36,828 bases of DNA from assembly GCA_019873685.1 (NCBI GenBank), contig JAIOAT010000037.1, forward strand, positions 1 to 36,828, given 5' to 3'. The notes beneath the pieces are model-generated. The model made no database searches. It worked only from the letters and a program-made list of their open reading frames with translations, and had not been told where the DNA came from. A program made the position numbers and the translations under genes. Positions within the stretch are counted from its first letter, which is position 1; the number at the start of each line of letters is the position of its first letter. The DNA is from Chloroflexota bacterium. GTDB lineage: Bacteria > Chloroflexota > Anaerolineae > Aggregatilineales > Ch27. This document shows positions 7,452-19,249 of this stretch, piece by piece.

Positions 7452-8663
7452 TCAGACGCCCGGCGTGCTCCCATTGCCTGGCGTGACCACCAGCCGCACT
7501 TCCGCCAGGTTGGGGATCGTGTGCACCAGCTCGTGACGGATGCGGTCAGTGACGGCGGCGGCAACGGCGGTGGTGAGTTGCGGTGGCAGGGCGATGGTAG
7601 CCTCCAGGTGAAGCGCGTGGCCTATCCAGCGCATCCGCAGCGTCTCGACCGCCTGGACATCGGCATCACGGCGGATCGCTTCCTCAGCCTGGTCTACCAG
7701 CGCCGGGTCCACCGCGTCCATCAGCCGGTACCACATGGCGATCACGGCATCACGGGTGATGAAAACAATCGCCAGGCCGATCAACAGGCCGATAATGGGG
7801 TCAACAATCGGGTAGCCCAGCCATGTGCCAACCACAGCAATCAGCACCGCCAGCGAGGTCAGGCCGTCGGCGCGGGCGTGTCGGCCATCGGTGATCATCG
7901 CCTCAGAGCCGATCCGCCGCCCGACCTGAATTTGCAGCAACGCCACGAATTCGTTGCCCAGGAAGCCAATCAGCGCCGCCGCGGCCACCCAGCCCAGATT
8001 CTCCAGCGGTTCGGGATGGATGAATTTCTGGATCGATTCCCACAGGATGTACCCGGCGCTGAAAGCGATTGAGACGACGATCAGCAGCCCGGCGATATCT
8101 TCCGCCCGGCCGTAGCCGTAGGTATAGCGACGGTTGGCTGCCCGGCGGGCCAGCACAAAGGCGATCCACAGCGGGACGGAATTGAGGGCATCCCCCAGGT
8201 TATGGACGGTGTCAGCCAGCAGGGCCACACTGCCGCTGGCCAGGTAGATCAGCAACTGCAGGACAGTCGTCAGGCCCAGGGCGGCCAGCGCCAGTTTGAT
8301 CGTGCGGATGCCCAGTTCGTTGGTATAGAGCGGATCGCTGTAAGCAGGCCGGGCATGTGAATGGGCATGGCCGGGCAGGTGCAGCGCCCCGGCGATTAGT
8401 CCCCACAGGCTATCGTCGTGATGGTGATCGTGGTCATGGGCATGCTCATGATCATGGTCATGGGGATGGTCGTGGTCATGCTTGTGATCATGGTCATGGG
8501 GGTGGTCGTGGTCATGCTTGTGATCATGGTCATGATGGTGGTCATGGTCATGATGATCATGATGGTGATCGCCATCATGCCTATGATCATGCTCGTGCTC
8601 ATGGGCTTCCACCGCCATTGATTCTGCCTGTGTCAGCTCTGTCGCCTGTGCGCTATCGTGCAT
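7452..8663 (-). CDS. Cation diffusion facilitator (CDF) metal exporter with long His-rich N-terminus
   Basis: The product has 403 residues from the ATG at 8663. The frame can be extended to a TTG at 8675, but that TTG lies within the GGAGGG ribosome-binding site. After ~20 residues comes an extraordinary stretch of about 65 residues made almost entirely of His and Asp (HDHDHKHDHDHP repeats), likely a metal-sensing or metal-collecting arm. Six transmembrane helices follow, with the CDF site HNLGD in TM2 and HARAD in TM5 (both HxxxD, typical for zinc-type CDFs), then a cytoplasmic C-terminal domain. CDFs export Zn, Co, Cd or similar ions against protons. The gene is divergent from a Fur-family regulator and shares its intergenic palindrome, so metal-dependent control is likely. 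Confidence 0.92.
   Translation of the reverse strand: MHDSAQATELTQAESMAVEAHEHEHDHRHDGDHHHDHHDHDHHHDHDHKHDHDHPHDHDHKHDHDHPHDHDHEHAHDHDHHHDDSLWGLIAGALHLPGHAHSHARPAYSDPLYTNELGIRTIKLALAALGLTTVLQLLIYLASGSVALLADTVHNLGDALNSVPLWIAFVLARRAANRRYTYGYGRAEDIAGLLIVVSIAFSAGYILWESIQKFIHPEPLENLGWVAAAALIGFLGNEFVALLQIQVGRRIGSEAMITDGRHARADGLTSLAVLIAVVGTWLGYPIVDPIIGLLIGLAIVFITRDAVIAMWYRLMDAVDPALVDQAEEAIRRDADVQAVETLRMRWIGHALHLEATIALPPQLTTAVAAAVTDRIRHELVHTIPNLAEVRLVVTPGNGSTPGV
8467..8538. repeat. 36-bp tandem repeat within the CDF His-rich region
   Basis: Two adjacent 36-bp units start at 8467 and 8503 and are almost identical (TGGTCGTGGTCATGCTTG opens each). The unit is exactly 12 codons and encodes the alternating HDHDHK/HDHDHP block on the minus strand. 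More degenerate copies flank it to about 8600. The repeat can expand or contract without frameshift, so the length of the metal-binding arm may vary among strains. Confidence 0.85.
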
Positions 8664-8708
8664 ATTACCCTCCAATCCACTGCCCCACTCAGAGGGAGTA
8701 TATGGTAC

Positions 8709-8761
8709 ATTATAGGCACTGCAGGGCAGGCGAAAGCGTTATTGCAAAAAACTGCGACAAT
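8709..8761 (-). promoter_or_regulatory. Palindromic operator with conserved -10 box (copy 2), CDF promoter
   Basis: Read on the minus strand, the block GCAGTTTTTTGCAATAACGC (8755-8736) is followed, with the same 41-bp distance as in copy 1, by TATAAT (8714-8709). The interrupted palindrome spans 8738-8761: GTTATTGCA, 6 bp, TGCGACAAT. Transcription would start near 8702, about 39 nt before the CDF start codon. The palindrome ends 16 bp before the Fur-family ATG at 8778. A bound regulator could therefore control both divergent genes. Autoregulation by this Fur-family protein is the simplest model, an inference from position and symmetry. Confidence 0.65.
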
Positions 8762-8777
8762 CGCATCAGGGCGCGGA

Positions 8778-9254
8778 ATGACTCACCAGCGGATCGACTA
8801 CGTTGAGATCATGCGGGCGCACGGGCTGCGGGTAACGCCCCAGCGGCTGACCATCCTGGACGCCGTATGCGAAGGCGGCGGGCATACTACGCTGGGCGAA
8901 GTCTACGCGCGGGTGCGGGCCAGAGACCGGTCAATCGACCGGTCAACCGTCTACCGGGCGCTGGACGTGTTTGTGGCGCTGGGGCTGGTCGTCTCGGCGG
9001 AACTGGCCTCCGGGGAAACCGTGTACGAGATCGCCCATGCCGCGCCGCATCACCACCTGGTTTGCCAGGCCTGCGGGCGAGAGATGGAAGTCGAGGACAC
9101 TATCCTGCGGGGGGCATTCCGGGCGATTGCCAGGGAATACGGCTTCGCCGTGCGCATGGACCACCTGGTACTTTACGGGCTGTGCGCCGCCTGCCAGGTC
9201 GAGGGTCGGCCTGACACTGATACGCTCCACGCCGCCGATCACAGGGAAGAATAG
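8778..9254 (+). CDS. Fur-family metal-dependent transcriptional regulator
   Basis: The product has 158 residues from the ATG at 8778. An in-frame extension to 8658 would run through the divergent promoter and is not plausible. It has the Fur winged helix (GLRVTPQRLTILDAV at 16-30, STVYRALDVF at 56-65) and a dimerisation domain with HHHLVCQACG. Two CxxC pairs (Cys96/99 and Cys136/139) form the structural zinc site of Fur/Zur/PerR proteins. The regulated metal cannot be assigned safely. The divergent CDF exporter points to zinc or another divalent metal, so a Zur-like role is possible. The ribosome-binding site (AGGGCG) is weak, and the leader must be short because the palindrome ends 16 bp upstream. 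Confidence 0.9.
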   Translation: MTHQRIDYVEIMRAHGLRVTPQRLTILDAVCEGGGHTTLGEVYARVRARDRSIDRSTVYRALDVFVALGLVVSAELASGETVYEIAHAAPHHHLVCQACGREMEVEDTILRGAFRAIAREYGFAVRMDHLVLYGLCAACQVEGRPDTDTLHAADHREE

Positions 9255-10596: not shown

Positions 10597-12852
10597 ATGC
10601 TCACGCTTGAAGCTTTCTTCCACCTGGCGGCGGTAGACCGGCTGGTCGCCCGGATCGCTGCCGAACGGGCCGGCTGCGTGGTTGTTGCCGGGCTGGACGC
10701 GCGTCCGCTGGCCGTCGGCGCCAGGCAGCAGGGTGTGCTGCCCAGCGGTCGTTCCACCATCTTTCGCATTCTGGTGCGCGAAGTGCTGACCACCCATCCG
10801 GAAGCGACCTGCGTGGTTGTGGCTGAGGAAGAACCGCTGGGACGACTGCCTCCCGACATGCGCGGGCGGGTGCACGTCCTGCCGGTCACAGCTCCCAACA
10901 CACACGCCGACCTGATCGCCCGCACACTGGCCGCCGGGCGCCCTGACCTGCTGGTCATCGACCGTCTGTCCGAGCAGACCGCCCTCCCCGCGCTGGAAGC
11001 TGCTGCACAGGGCGTGCAGGTATTCTCCCAGCTGGACACGATCTTTCGCGGCGGTCAGGTCGCCGGGCAACTGGCGGCGCTTGGCGTGGATGAGCGTTGC
11101 CTCAATCATCTGCGCTGGACGGTCACGGTGGAGCGTCTTCCAGCGCTTTGCCCGACCTGCCGCCAGCCGGTGCTGCCAACAGCCCACCAGCAGGGAATCC
11201 TGCGTCAGCTGTGCCCGGATTACGAGGCGCTGGGGCGCGCAGCGCTGGCGGAGCGCTCCCCGGAGGCGCTGCCCCCGCCCGGCGAGTCCATGCCGTTCTA
11301 CGCGCCGGGCAGTTGCGATCGTTGCGGCGGCACAGGGCGCTACGGCGATGTCCTGCTCTTCGACATCCATCATGTGCAGGAGGGCGGCCTGCTGGCCATG
11401 GAGCAGTATGCCGTGCAGCTGGCCGCGCTCGGCCACCTCTCCCTGGCCGATGTCCTGCGCTTTGAGCACGGCCAGCTGCTGCACACCTACCACCTGCTCA
11501 CCGCCAGCGAGACCGCGCTGGCCGACCTGAATACCCGGCTGCAGCAGAAGCTGGCCCAGCTGGAAAGCGCCAACCGCGTCCTGGAGGAGCGGACCAGAGC
11601 TTTGATCACGCTGCAGGGGATCAGCCACAGCCTGCTCGGCTCGACCTCACTGACCGGGCTGGGCCATCGCGTCTGCGCCTGTGTGCGCGATCTATGCGGG
11701 GCTGACCGGGCCATCCTGTACCTGCTGTTGCCGGGCAACCGGGCGGAAGTGCTGGCCGTCAGCGGCTGGCAACCGGATCACGTGGGCCGGCAGATCAGCC
11801 TTGACCCGGCTGAGTTCAGCGGAACGGCGCCGACCCCCTTTCATGCCTGGCCGCCGGGCATCCCGCCGCGCCACCCCGATCTGGAGGGCGGGCGGTTACG
11901 GGTCGGGTTGCGCATCCCTTTGGCGGCGCAGGATCAGCCGGTTGGCCTGATGATCGTGCACTCGACTTTCAAAGGGCGTTTCACGCCGGGCGAGATCGCC
12001 CTGGTTCACGCCTTTGCCAATCAGGCCGCCCTGGCCATCCAGCGAGCCGGCCTGATCGAGGCGCTCCAGTCGAAGGTCACCCAGCTTGAAGCGGCGCAGA
12101 TCGAACTGGCTAAGAAGGAACGCCTGGAACACGAGCTGGCGCTGGCCCGCCAGGTGCAGCAGAGCATGTTGCCGCGCACCTTCCCGCGCATCCCCGGCTA
12201 CAGCTTCGCCGCCGGTAGCGAGCCAGCCCGGCAGGTGGGCGGCGACTTTTACGACGTGATCCGGCTGGACGATGACCGCTTTGCCCTGGCCATCGCCGAT
12301 GTTTCTGGCAAGGGGATGCCAGCGGCGCTGTTCATGGCCCTGACGCGCAGCCTGTTGCTGGCGGAAGCCCGGCGTACGGCCTCCCCCGCCGCGGTGCTGG
12401 CCGCCGTCAACCGCCTGCTGCTGGAGCTTGGCGAGCCGGATATGTTCGTCACGATCTTTTACGGTGTGGTGGAGCAGGCCGCCGGTTGCCTGACCTACAG
12501 CCGGGCCGGGCATGATCGGCCGCTGCTGCTGCGGGACGCGCAGGCCGTCGAATTGCAGGGAAGCGGCCTGGCCCTGGGCCTGCTGGAGGGAGACCGCCTG
12601 GCGCTCTCCGAAGAGCAAATCGATCTGCGCCCCGGCGACCGGCTGGTGCTCTACACCGACGGCCTGATTGATGTGCAGGCGGCGGATGGTCGCCTGTACG
12701 ATCGCGACCGGCTCAAGAACCTGTTGCAGGCTCACAGCGCCCTGCCTCCTGGCGCACTATGCCGGACCGTGTTTGACCACCTGGCCGCTTACCAGGGAGA
12801 CGCCGAGCAGTTCGACGACATGACCATGCTGATCCTGGGCGTGAGTGCCTAG
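10597..12852 (+). CDS. PilB/GspE-like relic fused to GAF and SpoIIE-type PP2C phosphatase
   Basis: The 751-residue, probably cytoplasmic protein has no transmembrane segment. Residues ~25-260 resemble the C-terminal half of type II secretion/type IV pilus ATPases. There is a degenerate P-loop (LPSGRST, ~48-54; the lysine is Arg), DLLVIDRL as Walker B position, VFSQLDTIFRGG where active enzymes have STLHTN, and the four-cysteine zinc site CPTC (185/188) and CDRCGGTG (240/243). A coiled coil (~303-340), a GAF domain (~340-485) and a second coil (~485-520) follow. A SpoIIE/RsbU phosphatase (~520-750) has all metal aspartates: GGDFYD (550), IADVSGKG (568), YTDG (688) and FDDMT (740/741). The output is likely dephosphorylation of an anti-sigma-factor antagonist or similar. 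A strong AGGAGGGGAG ribosome-binding site precedes it. Confidence 0.88.
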   Translation: MLTLEAFFHLAAVDRLVARIAAERAGCVVVAGLDARPLAVGARQQGVLPSGRSTIFRILVREVLTTHPEATCVVVAEEEPLGRLPPDMRGRVHVLPVTAPNTHADLIARTLAAGRPDLLVIDRLSEQTALPALEAAAQGVQVFSQLDTIFRGGQVAGQLAALGVDERCLNHLRWTVTVERLPALCPTCRQPVLPTAHQQGILRQLCPDYEALGRAALAERSPEALPPPGESMPFYAPGSCDRCGGTGRYGDVLLFDIHHVQEGGLLAMEQYAVQLAALGHLSLADVLRFEHGQLLHTYHLLTASETALADLNTRLQQKLAQLESANRVLEERTRALITLQGISHSLLGSTSLTGLGHRVCACVRDLCGADRAILYLLLPGNRAEVLAVSGWQPDHVGRQISLDPAEFSGTAPTPFHAWPPGIPPRHPDLEGGRLRVGLRIPLAAQDQPVGLMIVHSTFKGRFTPGEIALVHAFANQAALAIQRAGLIEALQSKVTQLEAAQIELAKKERLEHELALARQVQQSMLPRTFPRIPGYSFAAGSEPARQVGGDFYDVIRLDDDRFALAIADVSGKGMPAALFMALTRSLLLAEARRTASPAAVLAAVNRLLLELGEPDMFVTIFYGVVEQAAGCLTYSRAGHDRPLLLRDAQAVELQGSGLALGLLEGDRLALSEEQIDLRPGDRLVLYTDGLIDVQAADGRLYDRDRLKNLLQAHSALPPGALCRTVFDHLAAYQGDAEQFDDMTMLILGVSA

Positions 12853-12929: not shown

Positions 12930-14765
12930 TTAGCTCCCGGAGTACAGCTTCTCGATGGCCGCCTGCCGGGTCTGGATACGGCGGATGCGCTCCAGGTCGA
13001 ACTTGGCCCGGCGGTCAAAGGTGTAAATCCCGTTCTGCTCCTGATAAACGTCGGTGAGCTGGGTGTAGCAGTAGCCGAACATGGCCGGGTTATCCAGCAG
13101 GGCGCTGCACAGCCCCTCAAAGCGGGCGTAGAACTCCTCCAAGCTGCGCGGTCGTTCACCGTAGCCCCACGAATCGCCCTGCGCCGCCTCAGGATTCCAC
13201 CACGTGCCGCCGAATTCGCTGACGAAGAACGGCTGGCCGCGGTAGGCGATCGACCACTGCTTGCCGGGGAAGGGCGACAGGCCGTCCCAGGCGACATACT
13301 CGTAATCCGGCGAATTGTAGAAAGGCAGCCCCTCCCCCGTCCGGGCGTGACGCTGGGCAAAACGGGCGACATCCTGAGTGTAGTCGTGGTTGTCGTAGAC
13401 GTCCGCCTCCGGCACGCGGTGCGAATAGCCGGAAGCGTCCAGCACCGGGCGGGTGGTATCGAGCGCCTTGGCCGCCAGGAACATCCCGCGGGTGACGTCG
13501 TCCAGCACGGTGATCCGGTCGGTCAGAGTCTGATAGGTTTCATTCAGCGGGCACCAGCCAACGATGCATGGATGCGAATAGTCACGCTCGATCACCTCCA
13601 GCCACTGGGTGATATACGTCGCGCCGGGCTGCTGGTGATCTTCGTGCGGGCCATAGCCGGAGCAACCCCAGTCGGGGAACTCGCCCCAGACGATATAGCC
13701 CAGCCGGTCAGCATGGTACAGGAAGCGCTCCTCAAACACCTTCTGGTGGAGGCGTGCGCCGTTGAACCCGGCAGCCATGCTCAGCTCAATATCGCGGATC
13801 AGGGCTTCGTCGCTGGGCGCGGTCAGGATGCCATCCGGGTAGTAACCCTGATCCAGCACCAGCCGCTGGAAGACCACCTGGCCGTTGATCTTGATCGCCT
13901 TGCCATCGATGGCGATCCCGCGCAGACCGGCATAGCTCTGCGCCCGGTCAACGACGCGCCCGTCAGCGTCCACCAGCGTGAGTTCCAGATCGTACAGATG
14001 TGGATCGCCGACCGACCACAGACGGCGGCGCTCCGGCGGAACCGGCAGGTAAAGCTGGGGAGCCAGGTCGGAATCCGCCGGGACCTCAGCGCTGCTGACG
14101 ACTCCGGCGGCATCCCGGAGGACAGCACGGACGCGCAGTCCGGGCCGGTTGCCGGTGATCGGCAGTTCCAGCCGGAACAGGCTATTGGCCACGTCGGGCG
14201 TGATGCGCGGGCGCTTGAAGGCGATCTCCGGTACCGGCTCCAGCCAGACCGTTTGCCAGATGCCGGTCGTGCGGAGGTAGTGCGCGCCGCGGGGGCCATA
14301 GTAGCGGTGGATTTGCTTGCCACGCGGCTTGGGCGACTGGTGATCGTCACGGGCGCGGACGACGATCGTGATCGTCTCGCCGGGCTTCGCCACGCGGCTC
14401 AGGTCGCAGCTGAACGGCGCAAAGCCGCCACGATGACGGCCGACCTCGTGGCCATTCACCCACACAGTCGCGTCATAATCGACCGCCTGGAAATGCAGCA
14501 GCACCCGCCGTCCTGCCCATTCCGGCGGGATAGTCACCTGGCGGCGGTACCAGACTGCGTCCATGAAGTCCAGGTGGCCGATCCCGGAGAGCGGGGATTC
14601 CGGGCAGAACGGCACCAGGATACGGTCGCTCAACTCACGCTCCAGCAGGCCGCGTTCCAGCCCGCTGTCGCCAGCATCGATCTCGAACTGCCATTCGCCA
14701 TTCAGGCATAGCCAATCCGGGCGAACAAACTGCGGTCGCGGATATTCAGGGCGCGGAACACTCAT
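12930..14765 (-). CDS. Glycoside hydrolase family 2 (beta-galactosidase/beta-glucuronidase type)
   Basis: The 611-residue protein has the GH2 order. A jelly-roll sugar-binding domain opens with DWLCLNGEWQFEID and contains WYRRQVTIP and AVDYDATVWVNGHEVGRHRGGF. An immunoglobulin-like domain follows, then a TIM barrel with GIAIDGKAIKINGQ and GFNGARLHQK. The acid/base Glu lies in WCPLNET and the nucleophile Glu in FVSEFGGTW. No signal peptide is seen, so it acts in the cytoplasm on imported oligosaccharides or glycosides. The short form (611 residues) without the large C-terminal domains of LacZ fits the Chloroflexi/Thermotoga-type beta-galactosidase or glucuronidase groups. The precise sugar is not readable. 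It has its own transcription unit. The ATG has GAGGG nine bases upstream. Confidence 0.9.
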   Translation of the reverse strand: MSVPRPEYPRPQFVRPDWLCLNGEWQFEIDAGDSGLERGLLERELSDRILVPFCPESPLSGIGHLDFMDAVWYRRQVTIPPEWAGRRVLLHFQAVDYDATVWVNGHEVGRHRGGFAPFSCDLSRVAKPGETITIVVRARDDHQSPKPRGKQIHRYYGPRGAHYLRTTGIWQTVWLEPVPEIAFKRPRITPDVANSLFRLELPITGNRPGLRVRAVLRDAAGVVSSAEVPADSDLAPQLYLPVPPERRRLWSVGDPHLYDLELTLVDADGRVVDRAQSYAGLRGIAIDGKAIKINGQVVFQRLVLDQGYYPDGILTAPSDEALIRDIELSMAAGFNGARLHQKVFEERFLYHADRLGYIVWGEFPDWGCSGYGPHEDHQQPGATYITQWLEVIERDYSHPCIVGWCPLNETYQTLTDRITVLDDVTRGMFLAAKALDTTRPVLDASGYSHRVPEADVYDNHDYTQDVARFAQRHARTGEGLPFYNSPDYEYVAWDGLSPFPGKQWSIAYRGQPFFVSEFGGTWWNPEAAQGDSWGYGERPRSLEEFYARFEGLCSALLDNPAMFGYCYTQLTDVYQEQNGIYTFDRRAKFDLERIRRIQTRQAAIEKLYSGS

Positions 14766-14956
14766 AGGGTTTTTCCCTCATCGCCTCACTAGGCCACACT
14801 ATCCGGGCGGCCATCAGGCCCCCGGCCTGCACGCAGGACTGTTTATGGCATAGCTCCGGCACAAAAGCAAGGGAAAACGGCGTCCAGGCACCCCTCTTTT
14901 CAACCTGTTCAGGGCAATTGCTGGCATGGCGTGTTCTTAGTAACCTCAGCTTTCGA
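14766..14956. other. Intergenic stretch upstream of the GH2 gene
   Basis: No convincing gene is seen. On the minus strand, TTGCTT, 17 bp and CATAAA around 14845-14875 is a weak candidate promoter for the GH2 gene. The remaining bases up to the promoter at 14957 show nothing I can name. Confidence 0.4.
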
Positions 14957-14985
14957 TTGTCCGATCCACCTGCACAGGGTAAAAT
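14957..14985 (+). promoter_or_regulatory. Sigma-70-type promoter of the riboswitch/ECF operon
   Basis: TTGTCC (14957-14962), a 17-bp spacer and TAAAAT (14980-14985) match a standard housekeeping promoter at ideal spacing. Transcription would start near 14992, giving an untranslated leader of about 285 nt before the ATPase gene. A short stem GTCGGC/GCCGAC (15005-15019) would form early in that leader. Confidence 0.6.
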
Positions 14986-15107
14986 ATGTCAGAATACAGA
15001 GCCGGTCGGCCAAGCCGACAGGGCCGTATTAACAACCACAAACACTCTCCGAGTCTGTCGATGGCCTGCGACAGCGTGATCACGCGCATCGCGGCCCCTA
15101 AGGCGCG

Positions 15108-15278
15108 CCACCGTCCGCGCTATGGCGGCAGACCGACCCGCAAGGGCTGTCCGTACTCCGGACATGAGGGTATGGGTGGAAACGCCCATGCCTCCCGTTT
15201 TGGAAAGGAGAAACGACCGCTCGCTGCCCGCCAGGATAGCGAGTCCGCCAGCCGTCCGATTCTCCGGCTGGCGTTTTT
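15108..15278 (+). ncRNA. Structured leader RNA, probable molybdenum-cofactor (Moco) riboswitch
   Basis: The leader folds by eye into a multi-stem aptamer. A closing stem pairs GGCGGCAG (15124-15131) with CTGCCCGCC (15224-15232). A GCAA-capped stem CCC/GGG lies at 15137-15146, and GTCCG/CGGAC pairs at 15149-15163. A 10-bp stem at 15169-15192 is capped by GAAA. The block CCTCCC (15191-15196) is followed by GGAAAGGAGAAACG (15202-15215), whose CGTTT/AAACG ends pair. The GNRA-capped stems and the CCTCCC...GGAAAGGAGAAAC block are what I remember of the Moco riboswitch class (Rfam MOCO_RNA_motif). Cobalamin, TPP, FMN, SAM and THF core motifs are absent. A terminator follows directly (15246-15278). 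The class call is from memory and needs a covariance search. That it is a cis-regulatory structured RNA is much surer. Confidence 0.6.
15246..15278 (+). terminator. Attenuator: intrinsic terminator abutting the ECF operon start codon
   Basis: A perfect 9-bp stem CGCCAGCCG/CGGCTGGCG (15246-15254 with 15265-15273) has a 10-nt loop and is followed by TTTTT (15274-15278). The ATG of the first gene is the next base. A terminator upstream of its own operon is an expression platform, not a gene end. A competing stem CTCGCT/AGCGAG at 15220-15243 joins the aptamer's 3' side to the sequence just before the terminator, so ligand-dependent switching is plausible. Confidence 0.85.
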
Positions 15279-16823
15279 ATGACCGCACCATCTGCTCCCT
15301 GTTCACCGTCCATCACCGGCCCGGTCAGCGGCGCTGTTAGACCGGGGGCAATCCATGTCGAAAGTCTGAGCGTCGCGTTGCGCGGGCTGCCGGTACTGCG
15401 CGATGTCAGCCTGCACATCGACGCCGGTGAATTCGTGCTGATCAGCGGCCCTTCCGGCAGCGGCAAGAGCACGCTGGCCCGCGCTCTGACTGGCCTGCTG
15501 CGCAGCCAGGAAGGGGTATCCCTCACCGGAACCATCGGGATTTGCGGCGGCGACGCCCTGCGCCTGCCGCCTGCCCAGGTCGCCCAGCAGATCGGCATCG
15601 TCTTCCAGAATCCGCGCGCTCAGCTTTTCAACCTGACCGTGGCAGAAGAACTGGCCTGCGGCCCGCGTAACCTGGGACTGGACGAGCAGACTGTCCGCGC
15701 CCGGGTATCCTGGGCCGCCGACGCGCTCGATCTGACTCCTCTGCTCTTGCGCCGCCTGGATGCCCTCTCCGGCGGGGAAATCCAGCGCGTTGCCATTGGC
15801 GCCGTCCTGACCATGGGGCCGCGCGTGCTCATCCTGGATGAGCCAACCTCCAGCCTGGATGTCCAGACTACCTGGCAGGTCGTTCGCGTGCTCAGGCATC
15901 TGCACGAGCAGGAGGGCACGACCATCCTGCTGATCGAGCACCGCCTGGGTGAGGTGGCTCATCTGGCAACGCGGGTGGTGTTGCTGGATGAAGGGCGTGT
16001 CGCCGCTGACGGCCCGGCGGCAAGCATCCTCCAGAACACGGCCCTGCTGCGCCGGCTGGGGATGCGCCGCCCGGCCCCTCAGCCAGTGGCAGACGGGCAG
16101 ACTCTGCTGGAACCTGACGGTGTGCACCCTACTGCCGACCAACCGCTGCTGATCCTGGAAGGGATCGAGGCCGGTTACGCCCGGCACACCGTCCTCAAGG
16201 ATATTCACCTGACCCTGTGGCCGGGCGAATTCGTCGCTCTGGCCGGGGATAACGGCGCGGGCAAGAGCACCCTGGCGCTGGTGGCCGCGGGTCTTAAGTC
16301 CCCCCGGCGCGGGCGGGTCATCTTCAATGGCCGCCAGCGGGTGCGGATGGGGCTGGATGTCGGGCTGCTCTTCCAGAACCCGCTGGATCAACTCTTCTGC
16401 GACACGGTGGACGAAGAGGTTGCTTTTGGCCCGCACAACTTTGGCTGCTTTGCGCCGGATGTGCACGCCCGTACGCTGGAACGCTGCGACCTGACCGCCC
16501 TGCAGTGGCGGCCCGTCCACGCCCTCTCCGCCGGGCAACAGCAACGCCTGGCGTTGGCTGCGGTGCTGGCCCTGCAGCCCGCCCTGCTGATCCTGGACGA
16601 ACCCACGCTCGGTCAGGACTGGCGGCACCTGGAGCAACTGATGGCCTTCGTCACCGATCTCAATGCGCAGGGGACAGCCGTCCTGATGATCACCCACGAC
16701 TACAAGCTTGTACACCGTTACGCCCACCGTCTGGTGCTGCTGCAGGAAGGCCGCATCGTGGCGGATGGACGGCCCATTCACCAGAAAGAAGGAGAGTTAG
16801 AACATGCGCTTCAACCTGCGTGA
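15279..16823 (+). CDS. ECF transporter fused double ATPase (EcfA-EcfA' type)
   Basis: The 514-residue cytoplasmic protein consists of two ABC ATPase domains in tandem. Domain 1 has Walker A GPSGSGKS (57-64), signature LSGGEIQR and Walker B VLILDEPTSSLD. Domain 2 (from ~residue 285) has GDNGAGKS, a variant signature LSAGQQQR and LLILDEPTLGQD. Q-loops read FQNPRAQLF and FQNPLDQLF, the latter typical of CbiO/EcfA proteins. Such fusions energise ECF importers of vitamins, cofactors and metals. The ATG at 15279 has no Shine-Dalgarno sequence because the attenuator hairpin fills the space. The first ~23 residues are low-complexity, but no better start exists downstream. It overlaps the S-like gene by 20 bp. 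Confidence 0.9.
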   Translation: MTAPSAPCSPSITGPVSGAVRPGAIHVESLSVALRGLPVLRDVSLHIDAGEFVLISGPSGSGKSTLARALTGLLRSQEGVSLTGTIGICGGDALRLPPAQVAQQIGIVFQNPRAQLFNLTVAEELACGPRNLGLDEQTVRARVSWAADALDLTPLLLRRLDALSGGEIQRVAIGAVLTMGPRVLILDEPTSSLDVQTTWQVVRVLRHLHEQEGTTILLIEHRLGEVAHLATRVVLLDEGRVAADGPAASILQNTALLRRLGMRRPAPQPVADGQTLLEPDGVHPTADQPLLILEGIEAGYARHTVLKDIHLTLWPGEFVALAGDNGAGKSTLALVAAGLKSPRRGRVIFNGRQRVRMGLDVGLLFQNPLDQLFCDTVDEEVAFGPHNFGCFAPDVHARTLERCDLTALQWRPVHALSAGQQQRLALAAVLALQPALLILDEPTLGQDWRHLEQLMAFVTDLNAQGTAVLMITHDYKLVHRYAHRLVLLQEGRIVADGRPIHQKEGELEHALQPA

Positions 16824-17415
16824 ACTGGTCCTGATCGGCACATTCGGCGCCCTGTGGGGCGTGATCGAAACCACGCTGGGATCGGTGATCCACCTGGCCA
16901 ATATCCCGTTCAAAGGGATCATCCTGGGTGGGATCGGCGTCACCATCCTGCTGATCGGTCGCCTGTTCGTGCCCCGGCGTGGGGCGACGCTGGCGATGGG
17001 GATCGTCACCGCCGTGCTCAAGATGTTCAGCCTGGGCCAGTCTGTGAACAATCCGATGCTCGCCATCTTCATCGAAGCGCTGCTGGCTGAAGGCGTGCTC
17101 ACCCTGCACGGCAGGATCAGCCGGAAAGCGTTTTTGCTGGCGGGCGCGGCAGCCATTGCCTGGAATTTCTTCCACCCCTTCCTGACCTGGGGCATCCTGG
17201 CCGGGCAGGGCATCCTGACCATCTGGACAAGCACGATAGAGAACGGAGCGCGGACGCTGGGTCTCAGCCCGGACCTGGCCTGGGCGGTTGTAGCCATTCT
17301 GCTCGGCATCCATGTGCTCGGCGGTCTGCTGGCCGGCTGGCTGGGCTGGCAGGTCGGGCAGCAGATCCGCCGCCGCCAGGCTGCCCCGCTGAACGATCCT
17401 GCTACATCCGCTTGA
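16804..17415 (+). CDS. Membrane protein, probable ECF substrate-binding (S) component
   Basis: The 203-residue, highly hydrophobic protein has about six predicted membrane helices: start LRELVLIGTFGALWGVIE, then PFKGIILGGIGVTILLIG, LAMGIVTAVLKMF, IFIEALLAEGVL, AGAAAIAWNFFHPF and a last helix IHVLGGLLAGWLGW. Size and topology fit ECF S components. It does not show the signatures I know for RibU, ThiT, BioY, FolT, PanT or CbiM, so the substrate is open. It starts inside the end of the ATPase gene, with AAGGAG upstream, and is followed by the pterin-fold lipoprotein and the T component. Together with the leader RNA, a molybdopterin-related or Mo/W substrate is the working hypothesis. Confidence 0.7.
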   Translation: MRFNLRELVLIGTFGALWGVIETTLGSVIHLANIPFKGIILGGIGVTILLIGRLFVPRRGATLAMGIVTAVLKMFSLGQSVNNPMLAIFIEALLAEGVLTLHGRISRKAFLLAGAAAIAWNFFHPFLTWGILAGQGILTIWTSTIENGARTLGLSPDLAWAVVAILLGIHVLGGLLAGWLGWQVGQQIRRRQAAPLNDPATSA

Positions 17416-17455
17416 ACTGGACTGGCGTTTTTCTCGACGACAAGGAGCGTCTTAC

Positions 17456-17938
17456 ATGCATACCAGACACCTGCCAGTAGCTTTGATCCTCCTCGCGGTG
17501 CTGCTGCTTGCCGCCTGTAGCCCCGCCGGGCAAGCCTCACCCACCCCGCCGCAGGAAGCCTCCGCGCCCGGTATCATCCTGACCATCAGCGGCGGCGATA
17601 CTGAGCGCACCTTCACGCTGGAGCAACTTCAGGCCCTGCCAGTGACCGAGGTCGAATCAGCGGACGGCCAGTATGTCGGTGTGCGGCTGGGCGATCTGCT
17701 GACCGAAGCCGGCTTTGACCTGGAAGCGATCGCCACCGTCCAGGCGGTGGCAGTCGACGGCTTCAGCAGCACCTACCCGCCGGAGCTGTTCACGCGGCAG
17801 GACGCCGTGCTGGCTTACGCCCGCAAAGACGGCAACCTGAACGCTGACGAAGCGCCGCTGCGCATGGTCATCCCCGGCGAAGGCGGCAGAATGCAGCCGC
17901 GCATGGTCAACCGCATTGAGGTGAGCGCCCAGGGATGA
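17456..17938 (+). CDS. Lipoprotein with sulfite-oxidase-like molybdopterin-binding fold
   Basis: The 160-residue exported lipoprotein has a signal sequence ending in the lipobox LAAC (Cys21), followed by a Pro/Ala/Ser linker. The mature part resembles a minimal oxidoreductase molybdopterin-binding domain (Pfam PF00174). It has FTLEQLQALP, then YVGVRLGDLLTEAGFD (normally WTGVPLRDLL), AVDGFSSTYP, VLAYARKDG, APLRMVIPG and a final MVNRIEVS. The cysteine that ligates Mo in sulfite oxidases has no counterpart here, so enzymatic activity is doubtful. Binding of a pterin or cofactor outside the membrane is more attractive. A good AAGGAGCG ribosome-binding site precedes it. It overlaps the T component by ATGA, which shows it is an integral part of the ECF operon. 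Such a lipoprotein is unusual for ECF systems. Confidence 0.75.
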   Translation: MHTRHLPVALILLAVLLLAACSPAGQASPTPPQEASAPGIILTISGGDTERTFTLEQLQALPVTEVESADGQYVGVRLGDLLTEAGFDLEAIATVQAVAVDGFSSTYPPELFTRQDAVLAYARKDGNLNADEAPLRMVIPGEGGRMQPRMVNRIEVSAQG

Positions 17939-18540
17939 CCGTAGAGCCGCGTCCACGCCCCGGCCCAACTGTGCTGGCCATGACTGCCGCGATGATCATC
18001 GCGGTCGCTGGCAGCGGCTGGTGGCCGCTGGCCAGCCTGCTGGCCATGTTTGGCCTGGCCCTGCGCCTGGCTCCGGCGGCGTTGCACGCCATCCTGCGCT
18101 GGCGCTGGCTGCTGCTGATCCTCATGCTGATCCTGCCCGGCGCGCTGTGGGCCGGACAGCCGGATGACCGCCTGCTGGGCATCGCTTACTCGCGCTCCGG
18201 CCTGATCCTGAGCCTGCAGATGGCCTGCCGGGCGACGACGATCTTGCTGGGGGTGAGTGTCCTGAGTCAGCGGGTGTCGGTGATGCAGATGGCCGGGATG
18301 CTGGAACGGGCCGGGATGCGGGACATCGGTTTTGCCATCGGCGTGGGCTTCCACGCCCTGCCCACATTGCAGCGGCGCTTTGTCACGGCCTACGCCGCTT
18401 TCCGGCTACGCGGCGGCTTCCGTCGGCGGCGCTGGCGCGGGCTGCAATTGCTGATCGTCACAGTGATCAGCGGGGCGCTGCGCTACGCTGAAGATGTGCT
18501 GATGGCGGCGCAAGCACGCGCCTTCCCCTACGACCACTGA
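17935..18540 (+). CDS. ECF transporter T component (EcfT/CbiQ family)
   Basis: The 201-residue membrane protein has four to five helices: VLAMTAAMIIAVAGSGWWPLASL, LLLILMLILPGAL, then ATTILLGVSV. The C-terminal cytoplasmic part has two Ala-Arg-Gly-like coupling motifs (AAFRLRGGF and AAQARAFPY) that in EcfT proteins contact the two ATPases. The family range is 200-270 residues, so this is a short member. It is the last gene of the operon. The stop is followed by a strong hairpin at 18555. With the double ATPase and S-like protein it completes a dedicated (group I) ECF importer. Confidence 0.85.
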   Translation: MTVEPRPRPGPTVLAMTAAMIIAVAGSGWWPLASLLAMFGLALRLAPAALHAILRWRWLLLILMLILPGALWAGQPDDRLLGIAYSRSGLILSLQMACRATTILLGVSVLSQRVSVMQMAGMLERAGMRDIGFAIGVGFHALPTLQRRFVTAYAAFRLRGGFRRRRWRGLQLLIVTVISGALRYAEDVLMAAQARAFPYDH

Positions 18541-18550
18541 GCAGCAGTGC

Positions 18551-18583
18551 AAAAACCGGCGGGATCGCCCTGATCCCGCCGGT
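18551..18583. terminator. Bidirectional terminator between the ECF operon and the NTPase gene
   Basis: A perfect 12-bp stem ACCGGCGGGATC/GATCCCGCCGGT (18555-18566 with 18572-18583) has a 5-nt loop. AAAAA directly before the stem becomes a U-run on the minus strand, so it ends the NTPase transcript there. The stem also lies 14 bp after the T-component stop on the plus strand. Confidence 0.85.
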
Positions 18584-18596
18584 ATCGCACTTCCTT

Positions 18597-19175
18597 TCAG
18601 GGCTGCGGCCCCGGTAGCGTGATCACATGCACCGGCAGCGGGGCCAGCCGCGTCAGCAGCGCCTCGACCAGGCTGGGCCGGATCACCACCAGCGCCCGCC
18701 GGTAGGCCGCCGCCCGCAACACATCCAGCGCAACCACCCAGCCCTGATTGCGCTCTAGCTCCAGCGGCCCGATCTCATCGATCACCAGCAGGTCGCACGC
18801 TCCGCTGGCCGCCAGCAGCGCCGCCCCACGGGCCAGCGCGTCCGGGACAAACTGCCAGTGCAGGGTTGCCACTGATTCGGCTGCACCATCAGGTGCGCCC
18901 GCACCGCCAGGTGCGCCCGCGCCCTGCTCGTGGCGGACAGCCAGCGGCCAGCACTGCGCCGTCGCCGGATCGAGCAGATCGATCTCGATCCGCGTGCCAT
19001 CCGCCGCGTAGCGCCCCGGCGTCAGCACACCGCGCACCGTCAGACCAGCGGCGCGAGCGACGGCAACAGCACGCAGGCACAGCAGCGTCTTGCCGCTGCC
19101 GGATGCCCCGCTGAGCAGGGTGATAACCGCTGGCGGACGAAACAGGCTTTCCAGCCAGTCACGATCAGAGTCCAC
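18597..19175 (-). CDS. THEP1-like nucleoside-triphosphatase
   Basis: The product has 192 residues from a GTG at 19175, chosen because AAGGA lies 7 bp upstream. The open frame continues to 19247, but that extension is Cys/Gly-rich and has no ribosome-binding site. The protein has a P-loop GASGSGKT (~23-30), an RGVLTPGRY segment matching the GFYTPE/R motif of THEP1-type NTPases, and the Walker B DLLVIDEIGPLEL typical of this group. A low-complexity insert GAGAPGGAGAPDG, encoded by a short DNA repeat near 18890-18920, sits in the middle. Such enzymes hydrolyse nucleoside triphosphates. Their physiological role is poorly known, and relatives sit near metal or cofactor genes in some genomes. It is 3' of the Fe-ADH gene, so probably the last gene of that operon. 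Confidence 0.75.
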   Translation of the reverse strand: MDSDRDWLESLFRPPAVITLLSGASGSGKTLLCLRAVAVARAAGLTVRGVLTPGRYAADGTRIEIDLLDPATAQCWPLAVRHEQGAGAPGGAGAPDGAAESVATLHWQFVPDALARGAALLAASGACDLLVIDEIGPLELERNQGWVVALDVLRAAAYRRALVVIRPSLVEALLTRLAPLPVHVITLPGPQP

Positions 19176-19249
19176 GACGCCATCCTTACCCACCCGCCGG
19201 GGATGCGCCGGCAACATGCCCGTACAGCACGCCGGAGCGCCCCCCAACG

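Follow-up and report, generated by a model that had tools for sequence, protein, structure and literature searches.

The locus and its Moco riboswitch leader

We analyzed a 36,828-nt stretch of DNA from a Chloroflexota bacterium (the window), in which a Moco riboswitch leader precedes four ECF transporter genes. The features that we describe are:

14957..14985, + strand: candidate sigma-70 promoter, TTGTCC-N17-TAAAAT, 9/12 consensus positions
15035..15225, + strand: Moco riboswitch aptamer (RF01055), 46.5 bits, with P3, GAAA loop and receptor halves
15246..15278, + strand: intrinsic terminator (expression platform), 9-bp stem, 10-nt loop, U5, directly 5′ of the first start codon
15279..16823, + strand: EcfAA′, two fused ECF ATPase domains (TIGR04521 363 bits, TIGR04520 353 bits)
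16804..17415, + strand: ECF S (substrate-capture) component (AlphaFold model, fold match YkoE; PF09819 weak)
17456..17938, + strand: SUOX-fold lipoprotein (PF00174, 1.4e-12)
17935..18540, + strand: ECF T (transmembrane coupling) component, CbiQ family (PF02361, 9.4e-12, above cut-off)
18555..18583, no strand assigned: hairpin between convergent operons, probable bidirectional terminator (z −6.1)
18597..19247, − strand: NTPase_1 (THEP1-like) P-loop protein (PF03266, 6.9e-11)

A sequence-only reading of this DNA had likened the structured leader to the Moco class and proposed an Rfam covariance search as a check. The search gave a clear RF01055 match (E 3.6e-8; gathering cut-off of 36 bits) that covers model positions 1-135 in full, and no other riboswitch class competes at the window leader. 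This is the single RF01055 copy in the window's genome (97% complete). The leader folds at −133.7 kcal/mol compared to −108.7 kcal/mol for shuffled sequences (z −5.0), and P4 is an 11-bp stem with a GAAA cap. The enlarged P2 arm carries the sequence of each half of an 11-nt tetraloop receptor (CCUAAG and UAUGG). Ahead of P4 lies the hairpin GUCCG-UACUC-CGGAC (UGUCCGUACUCCGGACA), identified as P3 from the motif description, which ties the P3-containing form to Moco and not to the tungsten cofactor (PMC2408646). Because P3 is present, we reject the tungsten-cofactor aptamer type; a P3-like stem also occurs in nearly all riboswitches of window-type operons.

The predicted attenuator was recovered as a hairpin at 15246-15273 followed by a U5 tract that runs up to the ATG at 15279, and the 60-nt stretch containing it has a z of −3.5 compared to shuffles. 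A simple scan of 25 riboswitch leaders showed comparable hairpins in roughly half of them. The proposed sigma-70 promoter fared less well: its pattern is present, but the call is weak since it matches only 9 of 12 positions and one such pattern was found where 0.5 are expected in shuffles.

TIGR04521 and TIGR04520 both score above cut-off in EcfAA′, in two stretches each. The four ECF genes overlap or sit at most 41 bp apart and therefore very likely form one operon, which agrees, together with the domain matches and the S component's fold, with the earlier grouping of a double ATPase, an S-like protein, a lipoprotein and a T component into one unit. The operon thus carries its own dedicated A, S and T components, as group I ECF transporters do. 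Downstream, positions 18538-18600 fold at −33.7 kcal/mol, and the hairpin there is probably a bidirectional terminator shared with the convergent NTPase_1 gene, which lies outside the span of the earlier reading. By clustering with in-operon genes, many other genomes have relatives of this NTPase_1 as part of the ECF operon itself, immediately 5′ of the ATPase gene (PF03266 in L035, L156 and L160, with DUF2478 also in L156 and L160), and the protein may have a role in the same system. We found no literature on NTPase_1 or DUF2478 in Mo metabolism among open-access papers.

Folds of the S component and the lipoprotein

The AlphaFold model of the S component (pLDDT 93.6) has YkoE as its closest fold (5edl; Z 17.3, rmsd 4.3, 177 residues), followed by FolT, BioY, RibU, ThiT and PanT, and its top 17 fold-match rows are all known ECF S components (Z 17.3 to 8.4). 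The model indicates that the product of 16804-17415 has a true ECF S fold with six helices. The PF09819 match (E 3e-4) is below cut-off, and searching the PDB by sequence alone with the S family returned no match. In a low-identity sequence alignment, the YkoE thiamine contacts Y46, W49, E77, Q95 and D131 correspond to window residues G42, G45, K73, E91 and P125, and the Lys (K73) and Glu (E91) at the E77 and Q95 positions are invariant across 35 of 35 S components. Glu 22, 91 and 96 are invariant. CbiM (5x3x) is a weaker fold match (Z 7.8), and a domain search found no CbiM/NikM domain among the operon's proteins; a cobalt/nickel ECF transporter is disfavored, as no CbiM/CbiN domain and no cobalamin riboswitch were found at window-type loci.

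The lipoprotein model (pLDDT 84) matches sulfite oxidase (Z 18.7) and the pterin binder PruR (Z 15.6-16.6 over 116-121 residues, neopterin complex 7rkb included). By cysteine count, its sole cysteine is lipobox Cys21; the Mo-ligand cysteine that is conserved in SUOX-family molybdoenzymes is therefore absent. A SUOX fold without the Mo-cysteine is the combination that marks a PruR-type protein, and the modeled SUOX/PruR fold points to a pterin ligand.

Related operons, a sister system and Moco synthesis genes

RF01055 lies upstream of 26 of the 32 window-type operons with adequate upstream sequence, including one from a WOR-3 bacterium. Five loci (L130, L131, L158, L165 and L167) have no riboswitch match even at a lax threshold, the riboswitch is absent at the gathering threshold in L156, and none was found at 14 loci of the group-2 S family (insert LFPPLADTF). 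Across phyla, the operons carry Moco genes: MoeA-MobB-MobA (L041), MobB-MobA (L035), MoeA together with FmdE (L154), MobA (L156 and L164), a MocA-like partner (L161) and, by sequence reading only, MoeA (L158), MobB (L148) and an XdhC-like partner (L131). Mo-oxidoreductase operons adjoin some of them. Consistent linkage to an unrelated vitamin pathway, which the sequence-only reading had named as evidence that would count against it, was not seen; the genes found with the orthologous operons belong to Moco metabolism and not to another vitamin pathway. Two operons from diderm phyla (L156 and L160) include a TonB receptor, suggesting a bulky or scarce ligand.

We also found a sister ECF system, in which a YkoE-like S component is fused to sulfite-oxidase-fold (SUOX) domains. 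It is present in 14 of 298 class genomes, and a riboswitch lies upstream at all 14 loci. Its S pocket differs from the window type in keeping E77, and a profile comparison between the two S components is weak (probability 18%, E 0.0013). Among class genomes, moaC is missing in 10 of 14 with the sister system compared to 41 of the 284 others (P = 5.6e-6). In the three sister-system genomes where further synthesis genes were checked (G100, G075 and G043), moaA, moaE and moeA are missing, while PF00384, the molybdopterin-oxidoreductase family that NuoG also matches, is found at 7, 4 and 2 places, respectively.

These moaC-loss figures describe the sister system and not the window-type importer. 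In the class, moaC is retained by every one of the 13 genomes that carry the close S type, and the window's genome, with moaA, D, E and C and three moeA matches, is predicted from these genes to make molybdopterin itself; synthesis is therefore not replaced there, and replacement of synthesis by the window-type importer is not supported in the class. Taken together, S-positive genomes show no excess of moaC loss (3/38 compared to 48/260, P = 0.16). Two WOR-3 genomes (G322 and G328) carry a window-type S component and PF00384 genes and, subject to their completeness, yield no moaA/C/E or moeA matches. The earlier suggestion that such operons might occur in Mo-enzyme genomes lacking moa/moe is thus clear for the sister system, while completeness data are weaker for window-type S genomes of this kind (G322, G326 and G328 have no completeness estimate).

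Substrate, proposed mechanism and known systems

Based on the riboswitch, the operon gene partners and the sister system's gene loss, the window-type importer is a Moco-economy ECF transporter. The choice between molybdopterin and Mo/W had been left open; the evidence leans to a pterin form, in a genome that itself appears to make molybdopterin. We favor molybdopterin/Moco as the candidate substrate for uptake, with a probability of about 0.55.

A possible but less probable reading is that the imported substrate is molybdate or tungstate, either free or chelated. The transporter would then take the place of ModABC/TupABC under conventional Moco-riboswitch control, with the lipoprotein as a metal-complex binder or an accessory. 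Molybdate transporters are classic Moco riboswitch targets, according to the motif description (PMC2408646). The window's genome is predicted to make molybdopterin, but the TIGR02141 matches listed for it and its sister species include no ModB/TupB/WtpB-like permease (the best reach 91 bits, in a 575-aa two-domain permease), which leaves the molybdate source of the genus unexplained and fits such an importer; ModB scores above cut-off in 9 of 11 ECF-less relatives in the order. The linked moeA, mobA and mobB genes also fit molybdate supply, as does the invariant Lys73 in the S pocket. However, Mod/Tup-type permeases coexist with the S component in several genomes (G252, G072, G016 and G032), and the two WOR-3 genomes, having neither moaA/C/E nor moeA, would have no use for imported molybdate, subject to their completeness. 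The lipoprotein's fold points to a pterin instead, and the three invariant Glu residues would be unusual for an anion site. We know of no ECF transporter of an oxyanion; if molybdate were the substrate, this would be the first such importer known.

An unlikely alternative is that another pterin or a Moco precursor or breakdown product (cPMP, or dephosphorylated or oxidized molybdopterin) is salvaged under Moco control. Small pterins, and probably not Moco, are the ligands of PruR-like proteins, and the PruR pocket is reported to be too small for Moco (PMC13259868). The lipoprotein is similar in size to PruR, and salvaging a late intermediate beside synthesis would be consistent with the class having kept moaC. 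The three sister-system genomes without moeA and moa genes, however, must obtain the cofactor in a late or complete form. A standard YkoEDC-type importer of HMP/thiamine, placed by chance under a Moco riboswitch, has the closest fold, the weak PF09819 match and YkoD's double ATPase in its favor, but was rejected as very improbable since no TPP riboswitch was found at any window-type locus scanned, the thiamine-contact residues are replaced in the low-identity alignment, and the neighbors are Moco genes.

With molybdopterin/Moco as the substrate, the system would be a YkoEDC-like, group I importer that is feedback-regulated through the Moco riboswitch. At low intracellular Moco, transcription would read through the leader and the four genes would be expressed; at high levels, the bound aptamer would let the terminator ahead of the first start codon stop transcription, an on/off sense taken from the RNA's anatomy and the known class. 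The lipoprotein would capture an extracellular pterin form (molybdopterin, Mo-molybdopterin or a close derivative) on the outer face and deliver this ligand to the S component, which, with the T component and the double ATPase, would transport it into the cell. Inside, MoeA, MobA/MobB or MocA-like and XdhC-like proteins would reload metal and nucleotide and insert the cofactor into enzymes. In other genomes, these helpers are encoded within operons of this type.

We give roughly even odds to the broader proposal that environmental Moco/molybdopterin is salvaged by both ECF systems, in each of which a SUOX-fold capture domain accompanies the S component under a Moco riboswitch, and that this has permitted several Chloroflexota lineages to lose synthesis genes and become naturally auxotrophic for Moco while keeping molybdoenzymes. 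Moco uptake is something that bacteria are not known to do, and among open-access papers we found neither a published bacterial Moco importer nor a published link between ECF transporters and Moco. As judged from those papers, a Moco-riboswitch ECF importer with a sister that tracks moaC loss would be the first concrete bacterial Moco transporter candidate known; if true, it would predict cofactor cross-feeding in anaerobic communities.

The available part of the motif description lists molybdate transporters, synthesis and Mo enzymes as riboswitch targets and names no ECF transporter (PMC2408646); nor is a Moco-controlled ECF system named in the available part of Sun et al. 2013 (PMC3766115). 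Compared to the RF01055 regulons in that description, the window shares an aptamer with P3, a terminator-type expression platform and the predicted control of Moco-related genes, and differs in having an ECF transporter as the target. ModABC, TupABC and WtpABC can likewise be under Moco-riboswitch control and linked to moeA/mobA, but these ABC importers use a solute-binding protein and another type of permease. Neither a ModB-type permease nor a solute-binding protein is encoded in the window operon. PruR (7kos and 7rkb; PMC13259868) resembles the lipoprotein in being exported, about 150-170 aa long and SUOX-folded without the Mo-ligand cysteine. PruR signals through DcpA, whereas its window counterpart is a lipoprotein encoded among ECF transporter genes. 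In the sister system, a single protein combines the SUOX domain with the S component. A close relative in architecture is the HMP/thiamine group I transporter YkoEDC (5edl; PMC5037267), which shares the dedicated S-A-T set, the double ATPase and the S component's fold. Unlike YkoEDC, the window type has Moco instead of thiamine control, changed thiamine-contact residues, an additional SUOX-fold lipoprotein, a linked NTPase_1 and Moco gene partners.

ECF operon and riboswitch leader of the window

The operon encodes an ECF (vitamin-type) importer whose four genes overlap or almost abut, and it is preceded by a Moco riboswitch:

15035-15225 (+), Moco riboswitch, RF01055
15279-16823 (+), double ECF ATPase, first gene (TIGR04521, 363 bits)
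16804-17415 (+), membrane protein of 203 aa, second gene, the substrate-capture (S) component (model pLDDT 93.6)
17456-17938 (+), lipoprotein of 160 aa, third gene (PF00174, 1.4e-12)
17935-18540 (+), transmembrane coupling (T) component, CbiQ-type, fourth gene (9e-12)

The Rfam match covers the whole model at 46.5 bits against a cut-off of 36 (E = 3.6e-8), and is the single copy found in a genome-wide scan (4.1 Mb, 109 contigs, 97% complete). The sequence-only reading had suggested this riboswitch class and proposed uptake of a pterin or of Mo/W; its observation is real and, with the class now computed, its reading is correct at the level of Moco metabolism. The leader folds with a stability 5 standard deviations above shuffles, and contains the P3 hairpin, P4 with a GAAA cap and an enlarged P2 arm that holds both halves of the classical 11-nt tetraloop receptor. 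Because a 9-bp hairpin with five U before the ATPase gene ends exactly at the first ATG, transcription termination is the natural reading of the control mode, and from what is described for the riboswitch class (PMC2408646), Moco would be the repressor.

In a fold search with the S component's model, the top 17 rows were all solved S components of ECF transporters, led by YkoE, the HMP/thiamine S component (Z 17.3, 177 residues, rmsd 4.3), and then by FolT, BioY, RibU, ThiT and PanT. The thiamine contacts of YkoE include W49, E77 and Q95 (PMC5037267); in a low-identity alignment, these are replaced by G45, K73 and E91 in the window's protein, where K73 and E91 are invariant in 35 of 35 relatives. 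With these contacts changed and K73 and E91 fixed, the ligand should differ from that of YkoE, although the pocket positions are conserved. The lipoprotein has the fold of sulfite oxidase (SUOX; Z 18.7) and matches PruR at Z 15.6-16.6, the neopterin complex being among the matches. PruR is a periplasmic pterin binder (PMC13259868); the window's lipoprotein likewise has the SUOX fold and, again as in PruR, lacks the Mo-ligand cysteine, its sole cysteine being that of the lipobox.

An NTPase_1 gene (18597-19247) is the operon's convergent neighbour. A divergent pair elsewhere in the window, as read from its sequence, encodes a membrane protein (7452-8675, (-)), which resembles a cation-efflux protein and carries a very long N-terminal tract rich in His and Asp, and a Fur-like regulator (8658-9254, (+)). 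The gene at 10597-12852 (+) encodes a large regulator that contains GAF and SpoIIE phosphatase domains and whose N terminus gives a weak T2SSE-like match.

Related operons and their Moco-gene neighbours

The S component is present in 38 of the 298 Anaerolineae genomes, and a pattern search found it beyond the class in MAGs of Calditrichota, WOR-3, KSB1, Spirochaetes and Actinomycetales. The window's type is defined by lacking an insert of 5-7 residues that otherwise follows the first helix, and the insert type forms group 2. RF01055 lies directly upstream of the operon at 26 of the 32 window-type loci with adequate upstream sequence, and at none of the 14 insert-type loci scanned. Three group 2 operons of family f11 (L049, L050, L051) stand beside tRNA genes, with no known riboswitch. 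With gene boundaries in relatives drawn by a simple composition-based caller, the lipoprotein gene comes after S in about 20 loci and an NTPase_1 gene precedes the ATPase in many operons; at the diderm loci L156 and L160, the cluster includes a TonB-dependent receptor.

Moco genes sit within or abut related operons, the linkage being adjacency, not co-transcription. These are moeA-mobB-mobA ahead of the ATPase (L041), mobB-mobA downstream of T (L035), moeA and fmdE downstream of T (L154, Pfam confirmed), mobA (L156, L164) and a mocA-like gene alongside xanthine-dehydrogenase genes (L161). Inspection by eye of the sequences adds moeA (L158), mobB (L148), an xdhC-like gene (L131) and Mo-oxidoreductase operons adjoining L032, L035, L147 and L148.

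FmdE-type proteins (formylmethanofuran dehydrogenase operon protein E family) follow T at L045, L129, L147 and L154, with Pfam confirmation in L154 alone. In the sister species (G127; L123, L032), a molybdopterin oxidoreductase/FeS/NrfD/cytochrome cluster, including a further SUOX-fold lipoprotein, separates a glycosidase gene from the ECF operon; in the window (14765-15035) the two are adjacent with no cluster between, implying either its gain or its loss. Elsewhere in the window's own genome (L170, G000:C9:57899-59173), a molybdopterin oxidoreductase with an in-frame TGA is probably a selenocysteine formate dehydrogenase.

A fused S component and loss of Moco synthesis

MoaC was not found in three S-component genomes (G043, G075, G100), all of which own another ECF operon with a fused S component. 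The fusion joins a YkoE-like domain (PF09819, 70 bits in G100) to SUOX-fold sequence (PF00174), and this sister operon has its own double ATPase, its own T component and further SUOX-fold lipoproteins (L122:4567-9254 in G100, L172:4722-8810 in G075, L174:8650-12506 in G043; further loci are L194, L195, L196, L197, L199, L200 and L201). Of the 298 class genomes, 14 carry a full-length fusion, with RF01055 just upstream at every one of the 14 loci. The fusion is evidence for cooperation between the S component of an ECF transporter and a domain of SUOX fold, as proposed for the window's two separate genes.

Several SUOX-fold lipoproteins often follow the sister system, with multi-Cys (cytochrome-like) proteins in some. 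SUOX-fold lipoproteins at L122:9347-11103 and L172:15030-16323 lie directly under their own Moco riboswitches, that of G100 (L122) having two SUOX domains in one protein and two riboswitches in tandem; Regulski et al. 2008 noted 'sulphite oxidase' targets in S. wolfei that may be proteins like these.

We found that moaC is absent in 10 of 14 fusion genomes versus 41 of 284 fusion-less genomes (Fisher P = 5.6e-6, phylogeny ignored), most genomes being MAGs in which absence calls depend on completeness. In the stricter subset (at least 90% complete, at most 5% contamination), the counts are 7 of 8 versus 21 of 182 (P = 5.4e-6). The moaC-less fusion carriers are spread over six families, and two of them, G243 (9 contigs) and G263 (20 contigs), reach 97% completeness, so gaps are an unlikely cause of the absence there. 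Likewise, moaA, moaE and moeA were not found in G100, G075 and G043, the three of ten moaC-less fusion carriers checked. PF00384, which also matches NuoG, has matches at 7, 4 and 2 places in these genomes, respectively, and some of those in G100 contain an in-frame TGA. A strong ModB-type match was not found in G100; its relative G005 has moeA on a different contig from the moa genes.

Substrate and comparison with known systems

We infer transport itself and its direction from the ECF class. The substrate is molybdopterin or Moco with a probability of roughly 0.55. The pterin side comprises the SUOX/PruR fold, its fusion to the S component, the TonB receptors, operon partners acting after molybdopterin is made, and the co-occurrence of the sister system with loss of Moco synthesis; window-type S components also occur in two WOR-3 genomes of unknown completeness (G322, G328) without detected moa/moe genes. 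Molybdate or tungstate is a possible but rather unlikely substrate, favoured by the moaA-D-E-C genes, three moeA matches and three PF00384 matches in the window's genome, by retention of moaC in every class genome that has the close S type (13 of 13), and by permeases: among the matches listed, none in the window's genus is ModB/TupB/WtpB-like, and ModB is present in 9 of 11 ECF-less relatives within the order. However, free-living bacteria can combine synthesis and salvage of a cofactor, as many do for B12, so moaC retention is compatible with salvage. Another pterin or a precursor is improbable.

The sister system renders bacterial Moco uptake directly testable. We found no description of such a combination in the open-access literature; the system joins known kinds, namely a group I ECF transporter, a Moco riboswitch and a PruR-like pterin binder.
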